Below, piece by piece: positions 19,299 to 28,231 of a stretch of 36,961 nucleotides of DNA. Numbering within the stretch: position 1 is the stretch's first letter; every line of letters starts with the position of its first letter. The notes beneath the pieces were generated by a model. It was given only the letters and a program-made list of their open reading frames with translations. It was not told the DNA's origin and did no database searches. Source of the DNA: an uncultured Eisenbergiella sp. GTDB taxonomy: Bacteria; Bacillota; Clostridia; Lachnospirales; Lachnospiraceae. Location: positions 1 through 36,961 of the forward strand of contig CANQFM010000029.1 in assembly GCA_947598825.1 (NCBI GenBank), in the 5' to 3' direction. A program made the position numbers and the translations under genes.

Positions 19299-20309
19299 TT
19301 GAAAAGAAATAAGCTGGCAATATGCGATCCGGAGAGGGAGTACGCATATCGGCTTACGGACGCGCTCAGCAGAAGGGAGGACCTTCCGTTCGAGATCCTT
19401 ACCTTTACCAGTGTGGAAAAGCTGGAAGAAAGTCTTGCACAGGGGCCGATACAGCTTTTGATGATCGCACAGTCCGTTTTCCTTCCGGAAAGAAAGAACC
19501 AATGGAAGGTTTCAAGGATCCTGCTGCTGTGGGATCCCGGGGAGATCCCGTTACCGGGATTTGCAGGGATCAGCAAATATTCCGGTGTATCCAGGATCCT
19601 TAAAAAAATTATGGAAGAGGCGGCTGAGGATGAAAGCCTTCGTTTTCTTCCTACGCTGTCCCCCAATGATCCGAGTTATTTTCTGGGCATCTATTCTCCC
19701 GTCGGCAGATGTCTGCAGACGACCTTTTCTCTTTGCCTGGGCCAGCTTCTGGCCCGAAGCCACAAAGTGCTGTATTTGAATTTTGAAAGCTATTCCGGGC
19801 TGCCCCGAATGTTGGAGCGCAGCTTTGAGGCGGATTTTTCCGATCTGCTTTACTTCCTCGGAGAGCCCCAGGATGCCTTCCTGGGCAGGCTGTACCGGAT
19901 GGTCGAAAACGTAAACGGGATGGACATGGTTCCGCCTGCAGTTTCCGGCCTGGATATCTTTCAGATGCCAAAAGAGGAGTGGACAAAGCTCATGGAGGTA
20001 CTGCAGGCCAGTCGCTACGAGTATGTGATCCTGGATCTGTCGGATGGCGTGCAGGGGTTGATGGAGATCCTCGGCCGGTGCGCCTGCGTGTATACGATCG
20101 TGAAGGAGGACGGGTTTGCGGCCGCCAAGCTCGGGCAGTACAAAAGCCTGCTGGCCAGGACAGAACGGGGGGATATCCTGGATAAGACCAGGGAAGTGAT
20201 GCTTCCGGTCTTTCAGAAGCTGCCAAGGGATTTAAATCATCTGACCGTAGGAGAACTGGCTGAATTTACGGAAAGGATGCTGAAGGCAGATGGAACAAAA
20301 GGAATATGA
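19299..20309 (+). CDS. TadZ/CpaE-like pilus assembly protein with altered P-loop
   Basis: A 336-residue protein of the MinD/ParA superfamily as found first in gram-positive Tad loci. Residues 1-110 form a receiver-like domain (LAICDPEREYAYRLTDALS). Residues 125-330 form the ATPase-like fold: P-loop position GIYSPVGRCLQTTFSLCLGQ (130-149), YLNFESYSG after strand 2, and YEYVILDLSDG as the Walker B strand. TadZ usually sits at the cell pole and places the pilus machine. The P-loop here lacks the Lys normally before Thr (Gln is found), so ATP hydrolysis may be lost. TTG at 19299 is the start, seven bases after GAGGAGG. The end overlaps tadA by 20 bases. Confidence 0.75.
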   Translation: MKRNKLAICDPEREYAYRLTDALSRREDLPFEILTFTSVEKLEESLAQGPIQLLMIAQSVFLPERKNQWKVSRILLLWDPGEIPLPGFAGISKYSGVSRILKKIMEEAAEDESLRFLPTLSPNDPSYFLGIYSPVGRCLQTTFSLCLGQLLARSHKVLYLNFESYSGLPRMLERSFEADFSDLLYFLGEPQDAFLGRLYRMVENVNGMDMVPPAVSGLDIFQMPKEEWTKLMEVLQASRYEYVILDLSDGVQGLMEILGRCACVYTIVKEDGFAAAKLGQYKSLLARTERGDILDKTREVMLPVFQKLPRDLNHLTVGELAEFTERMLKADGTKGI

Positions 20310-21525
20310 GGCCGTTAAGGCGTCCTTAAAACGCGAGCTTTTAGGGAAGCTGGACTGCGGACAGGATTTTTCCGACCGGCAGGTACAACAGATGATCGAC
20401 GCGCTTTTGTGCGGCGCCGGGCTTGCGGGGAAACTGGAAGTGGCGGCCAGGCGCACAATGAGCCGGGAACTGTTTTCTTCCATCCGGGGGCTGGACGTGC
20501 TTCAGGAGCTGTTGGCCGATGAAAACGTGACCGAAATCATGGTAAATGGGCCGGACAGGATCTTTGTGGAAAAAGACGGCCGTCTGATGCGCTGGGAAGG
20601 GCGGTTTGAGAGTATGGCTCGCCTGCAGGATGTGATCCAGCAGATTGCCGCGGGATGCAACCGCGTGGTAAACGAGGCGTCGCCGATCCTGGATGCGAGA
20701 CTTGCGGATGGCTCCCGCGTGAACGTGGTGCTGTCCCCGGTCGCTTTAAACGGCCCCATCCTGACGGTCCGCAGGTTCCCGCGGGAGGGAATGACGCTGG
20801 ACAGGCTTGTGGCGTTAGGGTCGCTGGATGAGGAGTGCCGCCATTTTCTGGAGCTGCTGGTGCAGTGCCGGTATAACATTTTTATCAGCGGGGGCACCGG
20901 CAGCGGCAAGACCACTTTCTTAAACGCGCTTTCCCAGGCGATCCCGGAACAGGAGAGGATCATTACCATCGAGGACAGCGCGGAGCTGCAGTTGAAATAT
21001 GCGCAAAATCTGGTTTCTCTGGAAACCCGCAACGCCAATATGGAGGGCTGCGTTCCCGTGACGGTCCGAGATCTGATCCGCGCTTCCCTGCGCATGAGGC
21101 CGGACAGGATCATTGTCGGGGAGGTAAGGGGAGCGGAAATATGCGAGCTTCTGACCGCGTACAACTCAGGACATGCGGGGAGCATGTCCACCGGACATGG
21201 CAATACGGCCAGGGATATGCTGCTGCGGATGGAGACAATGCTTTTGATGGGAATGGACGTGCCGTTGTCCGCCATACGCAGGCAGATCGCCTCGGGCATT
21301 GACGTGCTGGTGCATCTGGGACGTCTGCGGGATAAGAGCAGGAAGGTGCTGGAGATCGTGGAGATCACTGGGTTTTCGGAAGGAGAGATTCAGACGCATA
21401 CGCTCTACGCTTTTGAAGAGGAGGGGGAGCGCAGCAGGGAAAGGGTGACCGGAAGACTGGTAAAAAAGGGAGATTTGGTGCATGTGGAAAAACTGGAAGC
21501 GGCAGGCCTGGGACAATGGGCGTGA
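20290..21525 (+). CDS. tadA: TadA/CpaF family secretion ATPase
   Basis: A 411-residue hexameric traffic ATPase that drives assembly of Flp pili. The N-terminal domain (about 1-190) includes DVLQELLADENVTEIMVNGP and RVNVVLSPVALNGPILTVRR. The motor has an intact Walker A, GGTGSGKTT at 201-209, the Asp box IITIEDSAELQL, Walker B region LRMRPDRIIVGEVRG, and the His box SGHAGSMSTGHGN. All catalytic parts are present. It overlaps tadZ upstream by 20 bases and the TadB-like gene downstream by 44 bases, so the three are translated together. Confidence 0.95.
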   Translation: MEQKEYEAVKASLKRELLGKLDCGQDFSDRQVQQMIDALLCGAGLAGKLEVAARRTMSRELFSSIRGLDVLQELLADENVTEIMVNGPDRIFVEKDGRLMRWEGRFESMARLQDVIQQIAAGCNRVVNEASPILDARLADGSRVNVVLSPVALNGPILTVRRFPREGMTLDRLVALGSLDEECRHFLELLVQCRYNIFISGGTGSGKTTFLNALSQAIPEQERIITIEDSAELQLKYAQNLVSLETRNANMEGCVPVTVRDLIRASLRMRPDRIIVGEVRGAEICELLTAYNSGHAGSMSTGHGNTARDMLLRMETMLLMGMDVPLSAIRRQIASGIDVLVHLGRLRDKSRKVLEIVEITGFSEGEIQTHTLYAFEEEGERSRERVTGRLVKKGDLVHVEKLEAAGLGQWA

Positions 21526-22267
21526 AAAGCCCGATTATGACCGTTACCGCTTATCTGTCCGGGAGGTGTTGTTGGGACTTTTGAAAAGCGCCCTGTTTAC
21601 AGGAGCGGCCGCCTATATGTTTTACCGGTCCTGGCTGGGGATGCTGGCCTGGCCCGCGGTAGGGTTTTTCTGTCTGAAAAAGGAAAAACAGGATCGCAGG
21701 GAACGGCGCAAGGAACGGCTTTCCGCACAGTTTAAGGACGCGATCCTGGCGGTATGCGCCGGCATCCAGGCAGGGTATTCCATTGAAAACGCTTTTTTGG
21801 AGACGGAAGGGGAGATCTGTACGCTGTATGGCAGAGACAGCGAGATGGCAAAAGAGCTGGCGGCCATCCGCAAGGGGCTGAAAAATCGGATCCCTCTGGA
21901 GCAAATGCTGTTGGATCTGGGGGTGCGCAGCCATGTGGAAGAGATCAGCGATTTTGCGGAATGTTTTGCCGCGGCGAAACGTCTGGGCGGGAATTTAAAG
22001 GAGATCATCGTCCGGACGGTGGAACTGACCGGACAGCGGATGGAGGTGGAGCGGGAGATCCGCACCATGCTGGCTTCCCGCAGATATGAGCAGAAGGTGA
22101 TGAACCTGATCCCGTTTTTCCTGTTTGGCTATATGCAGCTCACCTCGAAAGGGTTTTTTGACATCCTCTATTATAATCCGGCGGGCATTTTCATTATGAC
22201 GGCCTGTCTTGCAGTCTACCTGGCGGCGATGTTCTTGTCGGGGCGGATCATGGATATTCGGATATGA
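21482..22267 (+). CDS. TadB-like type II secretion F family platform protein
   Basis: A 261-residue inner-membrane platform protein. Two N-terminal hydrophobic segments (about 30-65) precede the T2SSF cytoplasmic domain, with LSAQFKDAILAVCAGIQAGY, SIENAF and ECFAAAKRLGGNLKEIIVRT typical of TadB. Two membrane segments follow (about 205-225 and 232-255). It would be the partner that the TadA motor turns or pushes during pilus assembly. The start codon lies 44 bases inside tadA, with AGGGAGA at good spacing, an unusually long overlap that implies coupling. Confidence 0.85.
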   Translation: MWKNWKRQAWDNGREKPDYDRYRLSVREVLLGLLKSALFTGAAAYMFYRSWLGMLAWPAVGFFCLKKEKQDRRERRKERLSAQFKDAILAVCAGIQAGYSIENAFLETEGEICTLYGRDSEMAKELAAIRKGLKNRIPLEQMLLDLGVRSHVEEISDFAECFAAAKRLGGNLKEIIVRTVELTGQRMEVEREIRTMLASRRYEQKVMNLIPFFLFGYMQLTSKGFFDILYYNPAGIFIMTACLAVYLAAMFLSGRIMDIRI

Positions 22268-22282: not shown

Positions 22283-23656
22283 ATGAAGGTACTTTCACAG
22301 GGAAAAGAGCGGGGAGTTCTTTATGGTCCGGCGCTTTGGCTGCAGCGGATGGAGGAAAAATGCGCCCGGGCCCTGGGCAGGCGCTCCAGGGGGCTGGAGG
22401 TGCTTATCGGGATCTATGGCCCGTCGGGAGGCAGAACGGCCTATCGGGAATACCGGATCCGGGAAAAGGAAAAGCTGTTGCTTTTTTTCCTGGCCGGGAT
22501 ATCGCTGACGCTGGGCCTTGTGATCAGCGGCCGGCTGCAGCGCGCGCAGGAAGGCGTAAGGACGCTGCAGCGCCCTGCCAGCGGCGCCGGAAACGCCGTC
22601 TATGAAATGGATGTCACGGCGGATGGAGAAAAACTGGCCCCTCTCCGGATAGAAGTCCCGGAACAGGAGCCGTCCCAGGAGGAGGTCCGCAGGCTGTTGG
22701 AGGATGCGGCCCTGGAGCTGGAAGCCTGGATGGAAAAAAACGGCTGGGATCCGGATGGGCTTAAGGAAGATCCGAAGCTGCCCGAAACGCTGCAGCGGGG
22801 GATGGTAGACGTGGTATGGGAAAGCAGCCGGTACGATGTTTTGGATAGCGCAGGCCATTTGCACAATGAATTGTTGCCGGAGGAAGGAGAAACGGTCACG
22901 CTGCGCGCGATCTTAAGCTGCAGGGAGACGGAGAAGATCCTGACGTATCCGGTCAGGGTGCTGCCAAAAGGACAGGACACCGCTTCCAGGCTCTTTCGAG
23001 AGGTGTCGCGCGAAATTCAAAAAGAGGATCCGGCGGAGACAGAAGTCGTTTATCTACCGGAAGAATTTGAAGGAAAGGCGCTGTCCTGGCAGACGGCCCG
23101 TCCGGCGTATGGGCTGCTGGCCGCGCTGTTGACGGCGGTCGGCTGCATCGCCCTTCGGGCGGCTTCGGAGCGGGATCTGTGCCAGAAAGGGGAAAAGCGC
23201 CATGCGGCCCTTCTGGCAGAATATCCGTCTTTCCTGCTGCGGCTTACGCTTCTGGCGGGAACCGGGATGCCGCTGAGAGCAGTGTTTCTGCGGCTGGGCA
23301 GGGAAGGGGAAAAGGAAGATCCCCTGCCGGTCTATGAAGAAGTGCTGCGGACGGTCCGGGAGATGGAAAGCGGGAAAACGGAGCTGCAGGCGTATGAGAG
23401 TTTCGGCTCCCGCTGTCAGCTTTCGCAGTACAGAAAGTGCGCGTCCCTGTTGGCGCAGAATTTGAAAAAAGGAACCGGCGGATTGGTGGCCGCGTTGGGA
23501 CAGGAGGCCGCAGTAGCTTTTGAGGAGCGAAAGGCCCTGGCGCGCAGGAAAGGAGAGGAAGCGCAGACGAAGCTGCTCCTGCCCATGTTGATGACGTTAG
23601 CGGTCGTGATGGTGCTGATCATGGTGCCCGCCTGCTTTTCCTTCGGCGGGTTCTGA
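22283..23656 (+). CDS. TadC-like platform protein with inserted Ig-like domain
   Basis: 457 residues. Membrane segments lie at about 64-82, 275-294 and 434-452. The region 295-425 is the T2SSF cytoplasmic domain (LLAEYPSFLLRLTLLAGTGM, later LLAQNLKKGTGGLVAALGQE). Between the first and second membrane segments about 190 residues would lie outside the membrane, far more than in a standard TadC. Part of this (about 172-228, with MVDVVWESSRYDVLD, HLHNEL and EEGETVTLRAILSC) has the look of an atypical bacterial Ig-like domain, preceded by a Glu-rich helix. It would pair with the TadB-like protein. GGGAGGGA precedes the ATG. Confidence 0.75.
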   Translation: MKVLSQGKERGVLYGPALWLQRMEEKCARALGRRSRGLEVLIGIYGPSGGRTAYREYRIREKEKLLLFFLAGISLTLGLVISGRLQRAQEGVRTLQRPASGAGNAVYEMDVTADGEKLAPLRIEVPEQEPSQEEVRRLLEDAALELEAWMEKNGWDPDGLKEDPKLPETLQRGMVDVVWESSRYDVLDSAGHLHNELLPEEGETVTLRAILSCRETEKILTYPVRVLPKGQDTASRLFREVSREIQKEDPAETEVVYLPEEFEGKALSWQTARPAYGLLAALLTAVGCIALRAASERDLCQKGEKRHAALLAEYPSFLLRLTLLAGTGMPLRAVFLRLGREGEKEDPLPVYEEVLRTVREMESGKTELQAYESFGSRCQLSQYRKCASLLAQNLKKGTGGLVAALGQEAAVAFEERKALARRKGEEAQTKLLLPMLMTLAVVMVLIMVPACFSFGGF

Positions 23657-23711
23657 CAATTAGGTGAAAGGCTTTTCGTAAACTTTTGAACTGAAATCGG
23701 GAGGAATGACA

Positions 23712-23960
23712 ATGAGGAATAAAATAAAAGAAATCAGGGATGAGATCCGGTATCGGATCTATAAGGTAAAATTCCGGCTGTTCGGATTCGGCCCCGGGCC
23801 TGTAAGGCGTATCCTGAGCAATCAGGATGGCGTTGGGACAGTAGAGGTGGTGCTGCTGATCCTGGTGGCCGTTGGCCTCGTCCTGATCTTTAAGACCCGG
23901 ATCACAGAACTGGTAGGCTCCATTTTCGATTCCATCACATCCCGCGCCGGGAAAATATGA
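23712..23960 (+). CDS. Flp1 family type IVb pilin
   Basis: An 82-residue prepilin, the likely main subunit of the pilus. The prepilin site is G40 followed by VGTVE, with the conserved Glu at position +5 of the mature protein, then a single hydrophobic helix (VVLLILVAVGLVLIFKTRI) and a short tail. The 40-residue leader is basic and much longer than in proteobacterial Flp. The mature pilin would have only 42 residues. ATG at 23712 is chosen because GGGAGGA is six bases upstream, while the ATG at 23706 abuts that site. It is coupled to the DUF5702 gene by ATGA overlap. Confidence 0.85.
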   Translation: MRNKIKEIRDEIRYRIYKVKFRLFGFGPGPVRRILSNQDGVGTVEVVLLILVAVGLVLIFKTRITELVGSIFDSITSRAGKI

Positions 23961-25384
23961 GGAACAACGGATCAATGACCGTATACCTGGCCCTTATCGC
24001 AGGGATCATGCTATCTTTGATCCTTGCGGTAATACAGGGGGCCCGGATCTCGACGATCCGGATGCATGTGGAATGCTGCGCGGATATGGCGCTGGATTCC
24101 GCGTTGGCGGAGTATCACAGGGAGATGCTCCGGCAATATGAGCTTTTTTTCATCGATACTTCCTATGGGACGAACGATCCCTCTTATCACAGGACGGAAG
24201 AACACATTTTTTCTTATATGGAAAAGAATCTCCGGCCGGAGGAAACCTTTCGCGTGCCCTTTGCCCGGGATCTGACAGGGCTGACAACGGACTCGGTTGA
24301 GCTGCTCCAGGCTGGCGTGGCCACCGACGAAGGGGGCAGCGTGCTGAAATATCACATCGTCCAGTATATGAAGGACATGACCGGCGTTTCCCTGGCCCAG
24401 TCCATTCTGGACAAAGGCTCCCAGGCCGGAGACTGGACCGGACAGGATATGGAAAGCCAATGGGACAGCGCGGAAGAGGCGATGAAGGAGGAGATCTTTG
24501 AGAAAAAACGGCTGCAGGAGGAAGAATGGGACGGGGAGATCCCCGAGACGCCCTCCGATGTGGTCCGAAGGACCAGGGGGGAAGGGATACTGGGCGCTGC
24601 GGCCCAGGGCATGGAGTTATCCAATGCGGTCATGCCGGAAGGCGCGTGCCCTTCCGTGCGCCCGCTGAATCAGGGTACCGGCCTGTCCGATTCCAAAAAA
24701 CCGGCGGAAAGCGTGTTGGACAACGGTCTGCTGTACGCTTATATTTTGGATAAATGCGGATGCTTTACGAAGCGAAAAGAAAACAGCGCGATGGCATATG
24801 AAGTGGAATACATCCTTCAACAGTGCGAGCAGGACAGGGAAAATCTGAAAAAAACCGCGCAGGAAATCCTTTGGATCCGGGAGGCGGCCAACGCTGCTTT
24901 CCTGTTTCAGAGCGAGCTGAGAGTGAGCGCCAGAGAGGTGGCGTCCGTCATCGCTTTTATTTTGGGGCTGCCGGAGGTGGAAGAGATGATCGAGATGGTG
25001 ATCCTGTTCGCCTGGGCCTATGCGGAGAGCGTCAAGGATATCCGGATCCTGTTCAAAGGGGAAAAAGTACCGCTGCTCAAAAGCGCGGACACCTGGAACA
25101 CGCCCTTTTTCCAGCTTTTGACGTACCGCGGCCATTTGGATTCCTATCATGCGGCGGATTACGGATGGGCTTATCGGGACTATCTGGGCGCGCTTTTGTT
25201 TCTCCATGGACCGGAGGATGCGGTCAGCGGACTGATGGACGTAATGGAGAGCGATATCAGAAGGACACCGGGCAATGCGGATTTTCGCATCGACGGTCTT
25301 ATCGACGGGATGCGCGCACAGATCAAAGTGACCAGCCGCTTTGCGGGAAGCTACAGTATCCAGCGCGTCTATGAATATGAGTGA
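23957..25384 (+). CDS. DUF5702 Tad-locus protein (minor pilin or TadG-like)
   Basis: A 475-residue protein with an N-terminal membrane helix right after the start (GSMTVYLALIAGIMLSLILA). The rest is large, outside the membrane, and rich in charged helices (YHREMLRQYELFFIDTSYG; DRENLKKTAQEILWIREAAN). A second hydrophobic stretch lies near residues 330-360 (VASVIAFILGLPEVEEMIEM). This matches the DUF5702 family, found in gram-positive Tad loci and probably filling the place of TadG. Its ATG overlaps the pilin stop, and its stop overlaps a GTG of the next gene, so dosage is probably tied to the pilin. Confidence 0.75.
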   Translation: MRNNGSMTVYLALIAGIMLSLILAVIQGARISTIRMHVECCADMALDSALAEYHREMLRQYELFFIDTSYGTNDPSYHRTEEHIFSYMEKNLRPEETFRVPFARDLTGLTTDSVELLQAGVATDEGGSVLKYHIVQYMKDMTGVSLAQSILDKGSQAGDWTGQDMESQWDSAEEAMKEEIFEKKRLQEEEWDGEIPETPSDVVRRTRGEGILGAAAQGMELSNAVMPEGACPSVRPLNQGTGLSDSKKPAESVLDNGLLYAYILDKCGCFTKRKENSAMAYEVEYILQQCEQDRENLKKTAQEILWIREAANAAFLFQSELRVSAREVASVIAFILGLPEVEEMIEMVILFAWAYAESVKDIRILFKGEKVPLLKSADTWNTPFFQLLTYRGHLDSYHAADYGWAYRDYLGALLFLHGPEDAVSGLMDVMESDIRRTPGNADFRIDGLIDGMRAQIKVTSRFAGSYSIQRVYEYE

Positions 25385-25428
25385 CAGCGTTCTGCGGCAA
25401 AATACAATGGAAAGGAGGGCCGGGCCGG

Positions 25429-26199
25429 GTGCCTTTTTTGGTCAGAACAGAGAAGCGAAGCAATGGTAACCAATGTATGATGAAGTACGCCGTAAGGCAA
25501 AGCGCTCAAACAGATTCTCCTGTTATCCCCAATCCCCTACACAGAGCAAAAAAGGCATCCTGCCAGGCCCTCCCGGGAAGTATGACGGTGGAAGCGGCCA
25601 TGGTGATGCCCCTTTTCCTGTACGCGATCATCAATCTTTTGTCCCTGATCCTCATGTTTCAGGAATACTCCGTGCAGGAGGCGAAGCTGCATCAGACGGG
25701 ACGGCAGATGTCGCTTCTGGCCTACGGGCAGGAGGAAGGAAAACAGGATATCGAACTGGTTACGGTCAGCCCTGTCAGGGCGTTGATCCCGATCGCCGCA
25801 TTCCCCTCCGCCGTTATTGTAAACGGCTGCGTGATGCATAAATGGACGGGCTACGATCTTTTCGGCCCGGAGGCGTCCTCTGAAGAAACCGGGGAGGTGC
25901 TGGTTTATGTGACCCGTTCGGGAACCGCTTATCATAAAAGCAGAAACTGCGTTTATCTGAATCCTTCCATCCGGATGATGACGCGCAGACAGGCGGAAGA
26001 GTCGGTAAACGCCGAACAGCAAAGATATACGCCCTGTATCCTCTGCGGAGGCGGCAGCGGTATCGTGTATGTGACGGAAACGGGGACGCGTTATCACAGT
26101 ACGGCAGGGTGCAGCGGTATCAAACGTACCATAGACAGCATACCGCTGTCGGAAGCCCTGGCGTCGGGACGGCACGCCTGCGCGAAGTGCGGAGGCTGA
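25429..26199 (+). CDS. TadE-like pseudopilin with two Cys/His metal-site-like modules
   Basis: 256 residues from the GTG at 25429, which has AGGAGGG nine bases upstream; a GTG at 25381 overlapping the DUF5702 stop would add 16 residues. A TadE-type segment (GSMTVEAAMVMPLFLYAIIN) anchors it in the membrane. After a spacer of about 100 residues, two related modules of about 45 residues follow: VLVYVTRSGTAYHKSRNC ending CILCGG, and GIVYVTETGTRYHSTAGC ending CAKCGG. Each has YH, one Cys, then a CxxC, like the small Cys/His modules at the C-termini of some nucleases and ComEC-type proteins, suggesting a bound zinc ion or a redox-active pair outside the cell. Confidence 0.75.
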   Translation: MPFLVRTEKRSNGNQCMMKYAVRQSAQTDSPVIPNPLHRAKKASCQALPGSMTVEAAMVMPLFLYAIINLLSLILMFQEYSVQEAKLHQTGRQMSLLAYGQEEGKQDIELVTVSPVRALIPIAAFPSAVIVNGCVMHKWTGYDLFGPEASSEETGEVLVYVTRSGTAYHKSRNCVYLNPSIRMMTRRQAEESVNAEQQRYTPCILCGGGSGIVYVTETGTRYHSTAGCSGIKRTIDSIPLSEALASGRHACAKCGG

Positions 26200-26203
26200 G
26201 AAC

Positions 26204-26653
26204 ATGGAGATCAGTATGGCGTTTACGATGCTGTTTTTGACCTGCTGCAGCATAACCGACTGCAGAAAGAAAAAGATTCCGGGAATATTTTTGTTAATAG
26301 GGATCGTCGGAGGAATGGCCGCGGTTTCCTGGCGGATCTGGCAGGGATATGATCACTGGTACTCTGTCCTGCTGTCGGCGGCCCCCGGGCTTTTGCTGTG
26401 GGGCCTGAGCGTCCTGACGGAAGAAAAGGTGGGACGCGGCGACGGGGATATGGTGATCATTCTGGGGCTTTTGCTGGGATGGGAGCGTTGTACGGCGCTG
26501 TTGTGCGCAGCCAGCCTGTTGGCGGCGGTCTATGCAGGCATCGGACTGGGCATCCGAAAATTAAAGAAAAGCAGCAGGATTCCCTTCGCCCCCTTTTTGT
26601 CCGTCTCCTGCGCACTGGTATGGGGGATGGCGCTGGCAGGAGGAAGGCTATGA
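26204..26653 (+). CDS. Prepilin peptidase (A24 family, CpaA/TadV-like)
   Basis: A 149-residue membrane aspartic protease with about four to five helices and no N-methylase domain. The two active-site Asp residues are D19 (SITDCRKKKIP) and D80 in the GxGD motif (KVGRGDGDM). It should cut the Flp pilin after G40, and possibly also TadE-like proteins. It starts four bases after the upstream stop and overlaps the next gene at ATGA. Confidence 0.88.
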   Translation: MEISMAFTMLFLTCCSITDCRKKKIPGIFLLIGIVGGMAAVSWRIWQGYDHWYSVLLSAAPGLLLWGLSVLTEEKVGRGDGDMVIILGLLLGWERCTALLCAASLLAAVYAGIGLGIRKLKKSSRIPFAPFLSVSCALVWGMALAGGRL

Positions 26654-27069
26654 AAGAACGAAACGGATATGTAATAGTAGAAGCCTCTGTGCTGCTGCCG
26701 CTGGCCTCGATTTTGATCCTGCTTCTGGTCTATCTTTGCAGCTATTTGTACCAGGGCTGCTTTTTGACACAGGCGGCCTATGTGACGGCATTTCGGGCCA
26801 GCCGTTTTCCCGAAAGGGGAGAGGACTATGCGTTATCCCAACTGGACGGGATTATGGAAGGACAGGCGTTGTCTTTCGGAAAAGAGGAGAGGACGGTAGA
26901 CATTTCCCTGCTGACAGTGCAGGTAGATCTGAAAAGGGAAACGCCCTTTTCGGCGTTGGGAAATGAGATCCCCGGACTGACGGCGTCCTGGCGCGTTTTG
27001 AGAAGGGATCCGCTGGCCTATATCAGAGGGATCCGAAAACTGGATGAATGGAGAGAACAGGATGGGTGA
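26650..27069 (+). CDS. TadE-like minor pilin
   Basis: A 139-residue protein whose N-terminus (GYVIVEASVLLPLASILILL) has the Glu and hydrophobic helix of TadE-type pseudopilins. The soluble tail contains TQAAYVTAFRASRFPE and a mixed alpha/beta part to the end. No Cys modules are present, unlike the other TadE-like protein in the locus. The start overlaps the peptidase stop (ATGA); the end overlaps the FHA gene by eight bases. Confidence 0.75.
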   Translation: MKERNGYVIVEASVLLPLASILILLLVYLCSYLYQGCFLTQAAYVTAFRASRFPERGEDYALSQLDGIMEGQALSFGKEERTVDISLLTVQVDLKRETPFSALGNEIPGLTASWRVLRRDPLAYIRGIRKLDEWREQDG

Positions 27070-28231
27070 AGCGATTTATAAAAGGGAGCTTGATCACAGC
27101 TATATGGTACTGAAATGCGAGGAAGGGGATCTGACCGGCGGCTACGCCTATCGGATGATGACCCGGAACCGGATCGGGAAATTGCTGGACTGCAGCCAGC
27201 GGCAGATGGATGGAGAAACGTTTCTCTATTATGACATTTCCTCCCGCCAGCCGTTGGAGAGGATCTATGAGGCCAGAAAGCTGGGCATCCGGGATCTTAG
27301 CCATATCATCCACGCGGTATCGGCAATGCAGGAGGATCTGGGGGAGTATCTTTTGGACGGGCAGGGGCTTTTGCTGGAAGCGGAGACGATTTTCGGCGAT
27401 GTGGAAACGGAAGAACTGTACTTTTGTTTTTATCCGGGGAAGGAAAAGTCCGTCGGCTGCTATGCCAGGCTGGCGGATTTTTTCCTGGAGCATGTGGACC
27501 ATGGACAGGAACATGCGGTGAACGCAGCATATCAATTCTATAAAATGTCCAAGTCCGATTATTTTGTGCTGTCCTCTTTCCTGCCGTTTCTGGACAGGGA
27601 GATGGCGGAAGAAAAGCGCAGGGAGGAAAGGGAAACGCCGGTTTTGGCGGAGGGCGTCCTGCCGCTGAAAGCGGAATATGATACGGCGCCTGAGCTGGAT
27701 TATGGGTTAGACGCCCAGGAAGAGGACGAGGAGGATACGAAAAAATCCTTCTGGCTTTTCCGGCTCTTTAAGCGCAGAAAAAAAAGAGAAGCGCCCGTCA
27801 GCCGGACGGAGCCGCCGGCAGAGACGGTTTGGGACAGTTATGTGGGGCAGTTCGATCTGGCCGGCTCCGGGGAGACGGTCTATTTTACGGATCTGGACAG
27901 TCTGACAAGGGAGCGGCGGGGCATCCCCTGTTTATCGGAGGAAGGGGGAGAGCGTATTTTTCCGCTGGAGGATCTGCCCATGACGGTAGGTAAGCTGAAA
28001 GAAAAAGTGGCGATTCTGCTGCAGGACAGTTCGGTGAGCCGCATACACGCCCGGCTGGAGGCTACGGCGGAAGGGGTGGGCGTACAGGATCTCAATTCCA
28101 GGAACGGAACGCTGGTCAACGGGGAAAAATTATCCCCCCACGAGTCGGTTGTTCTGCAGGAAGGGGATGTGATTCAGTTCGGCAGGGAACGTTTTCGGTA
28201 TGGGTTTCTTGACAGTAAATCGATAAAGTGA
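27062..28231 (+). CDS. DUF6382 and FHA domain protein
   Basis: 389 residues. The first 170 (IYKRELDHSYMVLKCEEGD, later LYYDISSRQPLERIYEARKL) match the DUF6382 domain of Firmicutes Tad loci. A charged linker includes a basic stretch (LFRLFKRRKKR, about 235-247) that may touch the membrane. The last 90 residues form an FHA domain, with the phosphothreonine-binding parts SVSRIHA and DLNSRNGTLVNG. FHA domains bind phosphothreonine proteins, so the pilus may be controlled by a Ser/Thr kinase encoded elsewhere. The ATG at 27062 is eight bases after GGAG and overlaps the upstream gene. Confidence 0.8.
   Translation: MGEAIYKRELDHSYMVLKCEEGDLTGGYAYRMMTRNRIGKLLDCSQRQMDGETFLYYDISSRQPLERIYEARKLGIRDLSHIIHAVSAMQEDLGEYLLDGQGLLLEAETIFGDVETEELYFCFYPGKEKSVGCYARLADFFLEHVDHGQEHAVNAAYQFYKMSKSDYFVLSSFLPFLDREMAEEKRREERETPVLAEGVLPLKAEYDTAPELDYGLDAQEEDEEDTKKSFWLFRLFKRRKKREAPVSRTEPPAETVWDSYVGQFDLAGSGETVYFTDLDSLTRERRGIPCLSEEGGERIFPLEDLPMTVGKLKEKVAILLQDSSVSRIHARLEATAEGVGVQDLNSRNGTLVNGEKLSPHESVVLQEGDVIQFGRERFRYGFLDSKSIK

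Follow-up and report, generated by a model that had tools for sequence, protein, structure and literature searches.

Two Ada-like Cys/His modules at the C-terminus of a TadE-like minor pseudopilin in a Tad locus of an uncultured Eisenbergiella sp. and its relatives

The contig CANQFM010000029.1 of an uncultured Eisenbergiella sp. (assembly GCA_947598825.1) was analyzed over 36,961 nucleotides, a stretch referred to as the window, which contains a Tad pilus locus on its forward strand. One gene of this locus (25381-26199, +) encodes a TadE-like minor pseudopilin, here labeled TadX, whose C-terminal part contains two Ada-like Cys/His modules. Its reading frame has the possible starts GTG 25381, GTG 25429, and ATG 25474, of which one of the latter two may be the true start; counted from GTG 25381, as for all residue numbers given here, the protein has 272 residues. 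In TadX, the prepilin site is followed by a hydrophobic helix, then by a TadE-like stretch that closes with a W-x-G motif, and finally by the two C-terminal units. The predicted cleavage between G66 and S67 (G66/SMTVE), with Glu at position +5 (E71), and the hydrophobic helix together cover positions 25576-25659 (+). Module 1 (residues 173-222; 25897-26046, +) contains H185, C190, C219, and C222, and module 2 (residues 227-271; 26059-26193, +) contains H239, C244, C267, and C270; both follow the pattern V-Y-V-T...G...Y-H-x4-C...C-x2-C. An earlier note on this DNA, in which the gene begins at GTG 25429, had described a TadE-type helix followed by two related Cys/His units, an observation that is confirmed by a module profile and by an alignment of 90 TadX proteins, whereas the interpretation given there is partly supported.

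With the TadX protein as query, 96 of 145 related genomes gave a match. The working set comprises 90 loci, 84 from the same family (the window included) and six from the same order; G008, where a single module lies on another protein, and the order-level genomes G099, G102, G109, G134, and G143 were left out. H185, C190, and C222 are present in 90/90 proteins, C219, H239, C267, and C270 in 89/90, and C244 in 88/90. These eight residues, together with E71, G157, and G235, are the columns conserved in at least 88 of the 90 proteins, and since the His and Cys residues are conserved across all or nearly all of these proteins a chance origin of the motifs is excluded; their loss in homologs had been named in the earlier note as a ground for refutation, and they are kept in 88-90 of 90. 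One miss at each of the four module 2 positions goes back to G042 (L066), in which an in-frame TAG cuts the open reading frame (ORF); the gene may be a pseudogene there, or the assembly may be in error. The remaining misses, one each at C219 and C244, both come from L053, where C244 is replaced by Ser. L053 and L131 have a His within or beside the closing C-x-x-C, which is what would be expected for a metal site.

A single profile (A2), made from 34 sequences with invariant H13, C18, C41, and C44, detects both modules of the window protein, module 1 with E 4.3e-11 and module 2 with E 9.0e-20, of which the former is the fairer value because the window's module 2 was among the 34 rows. Two matches at E <= 0.01 are found in 88/90 TadX proteins, the exceptions being the TAG-cut L066 and L100, whose first module is divergent with the four residues still present. 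In 79 proteins (eleven loci were omitted, namely nine same-genus relatives, L066, and L100), modules 1 and 2 are 31% identical within one protein and 30% between different proteins, and the identity reaches 38% among modules 1 and 40% among modules 2. Since the identity within a protein is no higher than that between proteins, while modules of the same position are more alike, the duplication predates the radiation of the family. The set compiled for single modules includes a few spurious regex matches, and identities between TadX modules and single modules were not used. The mean net charge of the modules is positive and that of the preceding part of TadX negative, with 25/89 copies of module 1 and 13/89 copies of module 2 being negatively charged.

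In an AlphaFold2 model, module 2 (26053-26196) can be superposed with 47 of its 48 residues on the zinc domain at the N-terminus of E. coli Ada (PF02805, Ada_Zn_binding; PDB 1u8b, 1zgw, 1wpk). The structure prediction proposed in the earlier note was thereby covered for module 2, at the level of the fold; a model of the whole TadX (10 sequences) was too poor with a pLDDT of 60.8, and its matches were not used, as they mainly reflected the long helix. Modelled module 2 and the E. coli domain have the fold and four ligands in the same order in common, and the ligand order of the wide N-Ada superfamily, X-x(3,4)-C...C-x2-C, occurs twice in TadX (H, C, C, C; 88-90 of 90). The Ada zinc domain binds DNA, and its Cys38 accepts the methyl group. 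In contrast, the first ligand of TadX is His, which leaves TadX without the methyl acceptor, the spacing is H-x4-C instead of C-x3-C, and the modules sit on a pilin, in two copies and below the Pfam cut-off. PF02805 gave no match at E <= 1 to the window TadX or to its module part.

Of 30 loci with PF02805, 27 were aligned (L137, L138, and L145 were left out), giving a profile of eight classical Ada domains with C-x3-C (A3) and one of 19 weaker PF02805 matches (A4), which have His at the place of Ada Cys38 in 19/19 cases. A further profile (A6) represents the C-terminal single modules of SNase nucleases and metallo-beta-lactamase (MBL) proteins. In profile-profile comparisons (hhalign), whose E-values are those of single pairwise comparisons, A2 is linked to A6 with E 1e-18 (1.3e-16 in the reverse direction), A6 to A4 with 1e-14, and A4 to A3 with 8e-16. 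The longer steps are weaker, with 5.2e-6 over 35 columns for A2-A4, 1.6e-7 over only 18 columns for A6-A3, and 3.3e-4 over 28 columns for A2-A3; zinc-ribbon controls (21 segments found, two of them empty) gave 1.4e-3 (A2) to 0.14 (A3). In the PDB, A4 finds E. coli Ada with E 1.9e-6 and His opposite Cys38; the match of A6 to this protein reaches no better than 0.04 and is confined to the closing C-x-x-C part. A PDB sequence search with the module part of the window protein found nothing, and one with the TadX module profile gave chance matches only. The comparisons and the model of module 2 uphold the Ada-like relation guessed at before. Because His stands at the place of Cys38 in the window and in the linking profiles, TadX is not classed as an Ada methyltransferase.

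In the window, the Tad genes follow each other on the forward strand in the order TadA-type secretion ATPase (20290-21525; PF00437, E 1e-56), TadB-like T2SSF protein (21482-22267; PF00482, E 6.9e-7), TadC-like T2SSF protein (22283-23656; PF00482, E 7.6e-10), Flp1-like major pilin candidate (23706-23960; PF16982, E 2.2e-19), DUF5702 protein (23957-25384; PF18960, E 2e-70), TadX, TadV-like A24 prepilin peptidase (26204-26653; PF01478, E 1.2e-11), second TadE-like pseudopilin (26650-27069; a TadE match below the cut-off at residues 90-131 of the ORF 26398-27069), and a DUF6382 and FHA protein (27044-28231; PF19909, E 3.1e-50; PF00498, E 6.3e-18). The DUF5702 protein has a TadE-like N-terminus as well (sub-threshold, residues 5-38) and is the probable partner minor pilin of TadX. 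The prepilin-type N-terminus of TadX is supported by conservation of E71 in 90/90, S67 in 74/90, and T69 in 80/90 proteins and by a sub-threshold match to the Pfam TadE family (PF07811; residues 66-84, 15.5 bits, cut-off 22.9). Proteins encoded at the same place in other loci match PF07811 above this cut-off (L111, 28.0; L118, 33.1) or below it (L127, 12.0; L131, 16.4). Pfam at its cut-off gave no match to the modules, and NCBIfam gave none to the window TadX at E <= 1. TadX is probably a minor pseudopilin of the TadE type, belonging to a Tad pilus of Bacillota, with its processing by the prepilin peptidase and its incorporation into the pilus being predicted.

DUF5702 is encoded directly upstream of TadX in 90/90 loci, and in 80/90 the three closest downstream matches listed include an A24 peptidase, two of the other ten loci lying near a contig end. 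Within the family, DUF5702 is present in 85/90 sampled genomes; TadX is found in 84 of these 85, with G019 as the exception, and in none of the five genomes without DUF5702, one of which (G035) is 60% complete. The near relatives in the named collection carry the labels Eisenbergiella, Lachnospiraceae, or Eubacteriales. In the stretches of 2.8-8.7 kb around these genes, no ORF other than those of TadX matches the module profile at E <= 0.01, and so the statement of the earlier note that the second TadE-like protein lacks the units stands. Its conclusion that they are an addition does not hold in the same way, as the tandem is old and family-wide and not specific for this genome; judged from the sequences, the modules go far back in the history of this gene slot and are not a local addition.

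The slot after DUF5702 was inspected in ten further stretches (L170-L179; G119 of family f13 not included), with Pfam run on six of the slot proteins. In L174, L176, and L178, which belong to other lineages, the slot protein stops at the end of the TadE part. The own genome has a second Tad-like locus (L184, C18:15000-33000), with genes for TadA, TadB/C, a Flp-like protein, DUF5702, a TadE-like protein, A24, and FHA, and its slot protein ends before the module position. One module is present in the slot of L111, L118, and, in divergent form, L131, all after DUF5702, and two are present in G437 (L127, L165), a genome from a different family within the class. For the sister families f13 and f3, one genome each was scanned, and in both the slot protein ends in a domain of PF21111 (L172:3832-4875 and L173:2777-3589; 37.4 and 29.3 bits, cut-off 27), the restriction-endonuclease-like family of the EC869 CdiA toxin; the head of L172 matches PDB 4g6u with E 2e-4. 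Five sequences were aligned, namely the two PF21111 matches, one that is 75% identical to the first, and two distant unmatched ones (L170, which is G019, and L177), and in 5/5 a residue other than Lys stands opposite the catalytic lysine. The active site is that described for the TA271 toxin in an excerpt of PMC9086364, the register of which would transfer to 4g6u by the S-x-K motif. Since Lys is absent at the catalytic place, these heads are probably not active nucleases. As the slot varies between no module, one, two, or PF21111, the C-terminal end of TadX behaves as an exchangeable head.

The module also occurs outside of pilins. A search of 299 genomes of the phylum with A2 gave 33 positive ones, including the window's own and three others of the family, and besides TadX the module is carried by, among others, SNase nucleases, an MBL protein, copper-amine-oxidase N-domain proteins, an M78 peptidase, and a DUF4236 protein. 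The viral-contig records yielded 125 places, of which 80 were retained; 56 of these loci form a further set (A7), and 73 of 84 module proteins remained without near duplicates (A8). Pfam (E <= 0.01) assigned to these 73 proteins SNase (14), Ada_Zn_binding (12), Lactamase_B of the MBL type (10), CWB2 (2), and SH3_3 (1). The modules of SNase and MBL proteins are the same as in TadX (hhalign E 1e-18) and are likewise C-terminal; they differ in being single copies on enzymes instead of a pseudopilin, with H-x3-C in the nine aligned. Single modules on nucleases had been mentioned in the earlier note and are now seen in the SNase proteins, and those mentioned on competence proteins are found on MBL proteins, whose resemblance to part of ComEC lies below the cut-off of that model. 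The Ada-type zinc module, known from intracellular DNA repair, is thus a widespread C-terminal module elsewhere, and many of its carriers are apparently exported.

Tad operons are already known to be common in Clostridia, as stated in part of PMC3244431. In the open-licence literature searched on Tad/TadE, Ada-zinc, and DUF5702 topics no description of TadX was found, DUF5702 is named nowhere, and nothing was found on what the Tad pili of Clostridia touch. Both parts of TadX are of known kinds; what appears to be undescribed in this literature is that they are combined, that this combination is fixed throughout the family, and that the slot is exchangeable. DUF5702 is present in nearly all sampled genomes of the family, yet this type of pilus is almost unstudied, and a conserved, probably zinc-binding head on a minor pilin offers a concrete and testable handle on what these pili touch. 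TadE/TadF/TadG of Tad (type IVc) systems and KilL/KilM/KilN of Myxococcus share with TadX the prepilin-type N-terminus, the Tad locus, and the presence of several minor pilins, whereas the sections of the literature dealing with them mention no zinc or Ada-like head.

The best explanation, to which we assign a probability of about 0.6, is that TadX is a TadE-type minor pilin with a tandem Ada-like zinc head that serves as a binding surface. The gene context, the conservation, the relation to the Ada zinc domain, the mean charge, and the exchangeability of the head are directly supported here, and very likely the end of TadX is a zinc-binding, Ada-like head of a Tad minor pilin. We infer that each module most likely holds one structural zinc ion in a Cys3His site, that the hydrophobic helix sits in the pilus, and that the modules, which are mostly basic, are exposed on the outer side of the membrane. 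TadX would probably be part of a minor-pilin tip complex with the DUF5702 protein and the second TadE-like protein. A proposal given in PMC12075869 is that the minor pilins TadE/F/G build the pilus tips and expose variable domains there, and by analogy TadX might be placed at the tip with its modules facing outwards. As His replaces the methyl-accepting Cys of Ada, the head would act as a binding surface and not as an enzyme, and a binding role can be assumed with somewhat better than even odds over a merely structural one. The pairing of pilin and modules, kept across a bacterial family, points to a specialized binding head, perhaps for DNA. DNA is our first guess, the single most likely ligand and still a tentative one. 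This guess is based on the positive average charge of the modules, on their fold relative being a DNA-binding domain, on the frequency of nucleases among the carriers, and on two other organisms in which Tad pili function in DNA uptake or transformation (PMC8513845 and PMC4322843).

Several points weigh against the tip position or against DNA as the ligand. For M. luteus a basal role of TadE/F is favored in a section of PMC4322843, other carriers of the module are wall proteins, and the charge of the modules would suit wall polymers equally well. Moreover, ComEC is present in 143/145 genomes, and since it is near universal a correlation is uninformative and no genomic link between TadX and DNA uptake was found. 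A bolder version, in which the slot is an exchangeable Tad tip head whose double zinc module captures extracellular DNA in Lachnospiraceae and which bears an apparently inactive nuclease fold in sister lineages, is unlikely as a whole. If true, the TadX head would be the receptor for DNA at the tip of a Tad-based pilus that serves DNA uptake or matrix binding, and two unrelated DNA-handling folds, both apparently without their catalytic residue, would have been recruited to one slot.

Instead of binding an outside ligand, the modules could be only structural braces, either by zinc-stabilized packing of the three minor pilins or by docking on the Flp shaft. A fixed protein partner is plausible as the slot adjoins DUF5702 in all 90 loci, conservation is concentrated on the ligand residues, and TadE/F were not found in sheared pili of a related system, as given in part of PMC4322843. 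However, related Tad loci, including the second one of the own genome, have the same slot without a module, so that assembly does not generally depend on the modules, and single modules occur on unrelated proteins; we consider this possible but somewhat unlikely. Doubtful, and more so, is binding of the cell wall or of another anionic surface polymer (peptidoglycan, teichoic acid, mucin, host glycans) for adhesion or wall passage: the basic average charge and carriers with CWB2 (2/73), SH3_3 (1/73), or ChW repeats (L169) agree with it, but the commonest recognized carrier domains are SNase (14/73) and MBL (10/73), and the fold relative is a DNA-binding domain. That the tip domains act on neighboring cells as effectors, with the zinc modules as one such domain or its carrier, is improbable, as the PF21111-type heads of f13 and f3, which together with the prey killing mediated by Kil/Tad tips (in part of PMC12075869) suggest it, are probably inactive and the zinc modules lack a recognizable catalytic signature. 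Least likely are C-x-x-C pairs acting as switchable surface disulfides, for which two such motifs on a protein predicted to face outwards and the missing C244 of L053, a Cys outside the C-x-x-C, could be quoted, since the His and the further Cys show the same strict conservation as the C-x-x-C, which a metal site would demand, Cys and His exchange naturally (PF02805 variants, L053, L131), and modelled module 2 matches the Ada zinc domain.

Among the other carriers, the own genome encodes at C6 a DUF4236 protein with a hydrophobic stretch and a single Ada-like module at its end (L002:122-751), which is the sole module protein besides TadX found there at E <= 1. L122:952-1638, assigned by Pfam, and L124, assigned by inspection only, each encode a peptidase of the M78 type (IrrE-like) that has a membrane helix and carries an Ada-like module at its C-terminus. 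L169:2928-5999 encodes a large ChW-repeat protein with the module at its C-terminal end. In the viral-contig records (L185-L264), Ada-like modules are frequent at protein C-termini, and two modules on one protein are found in 1/84 (L246).
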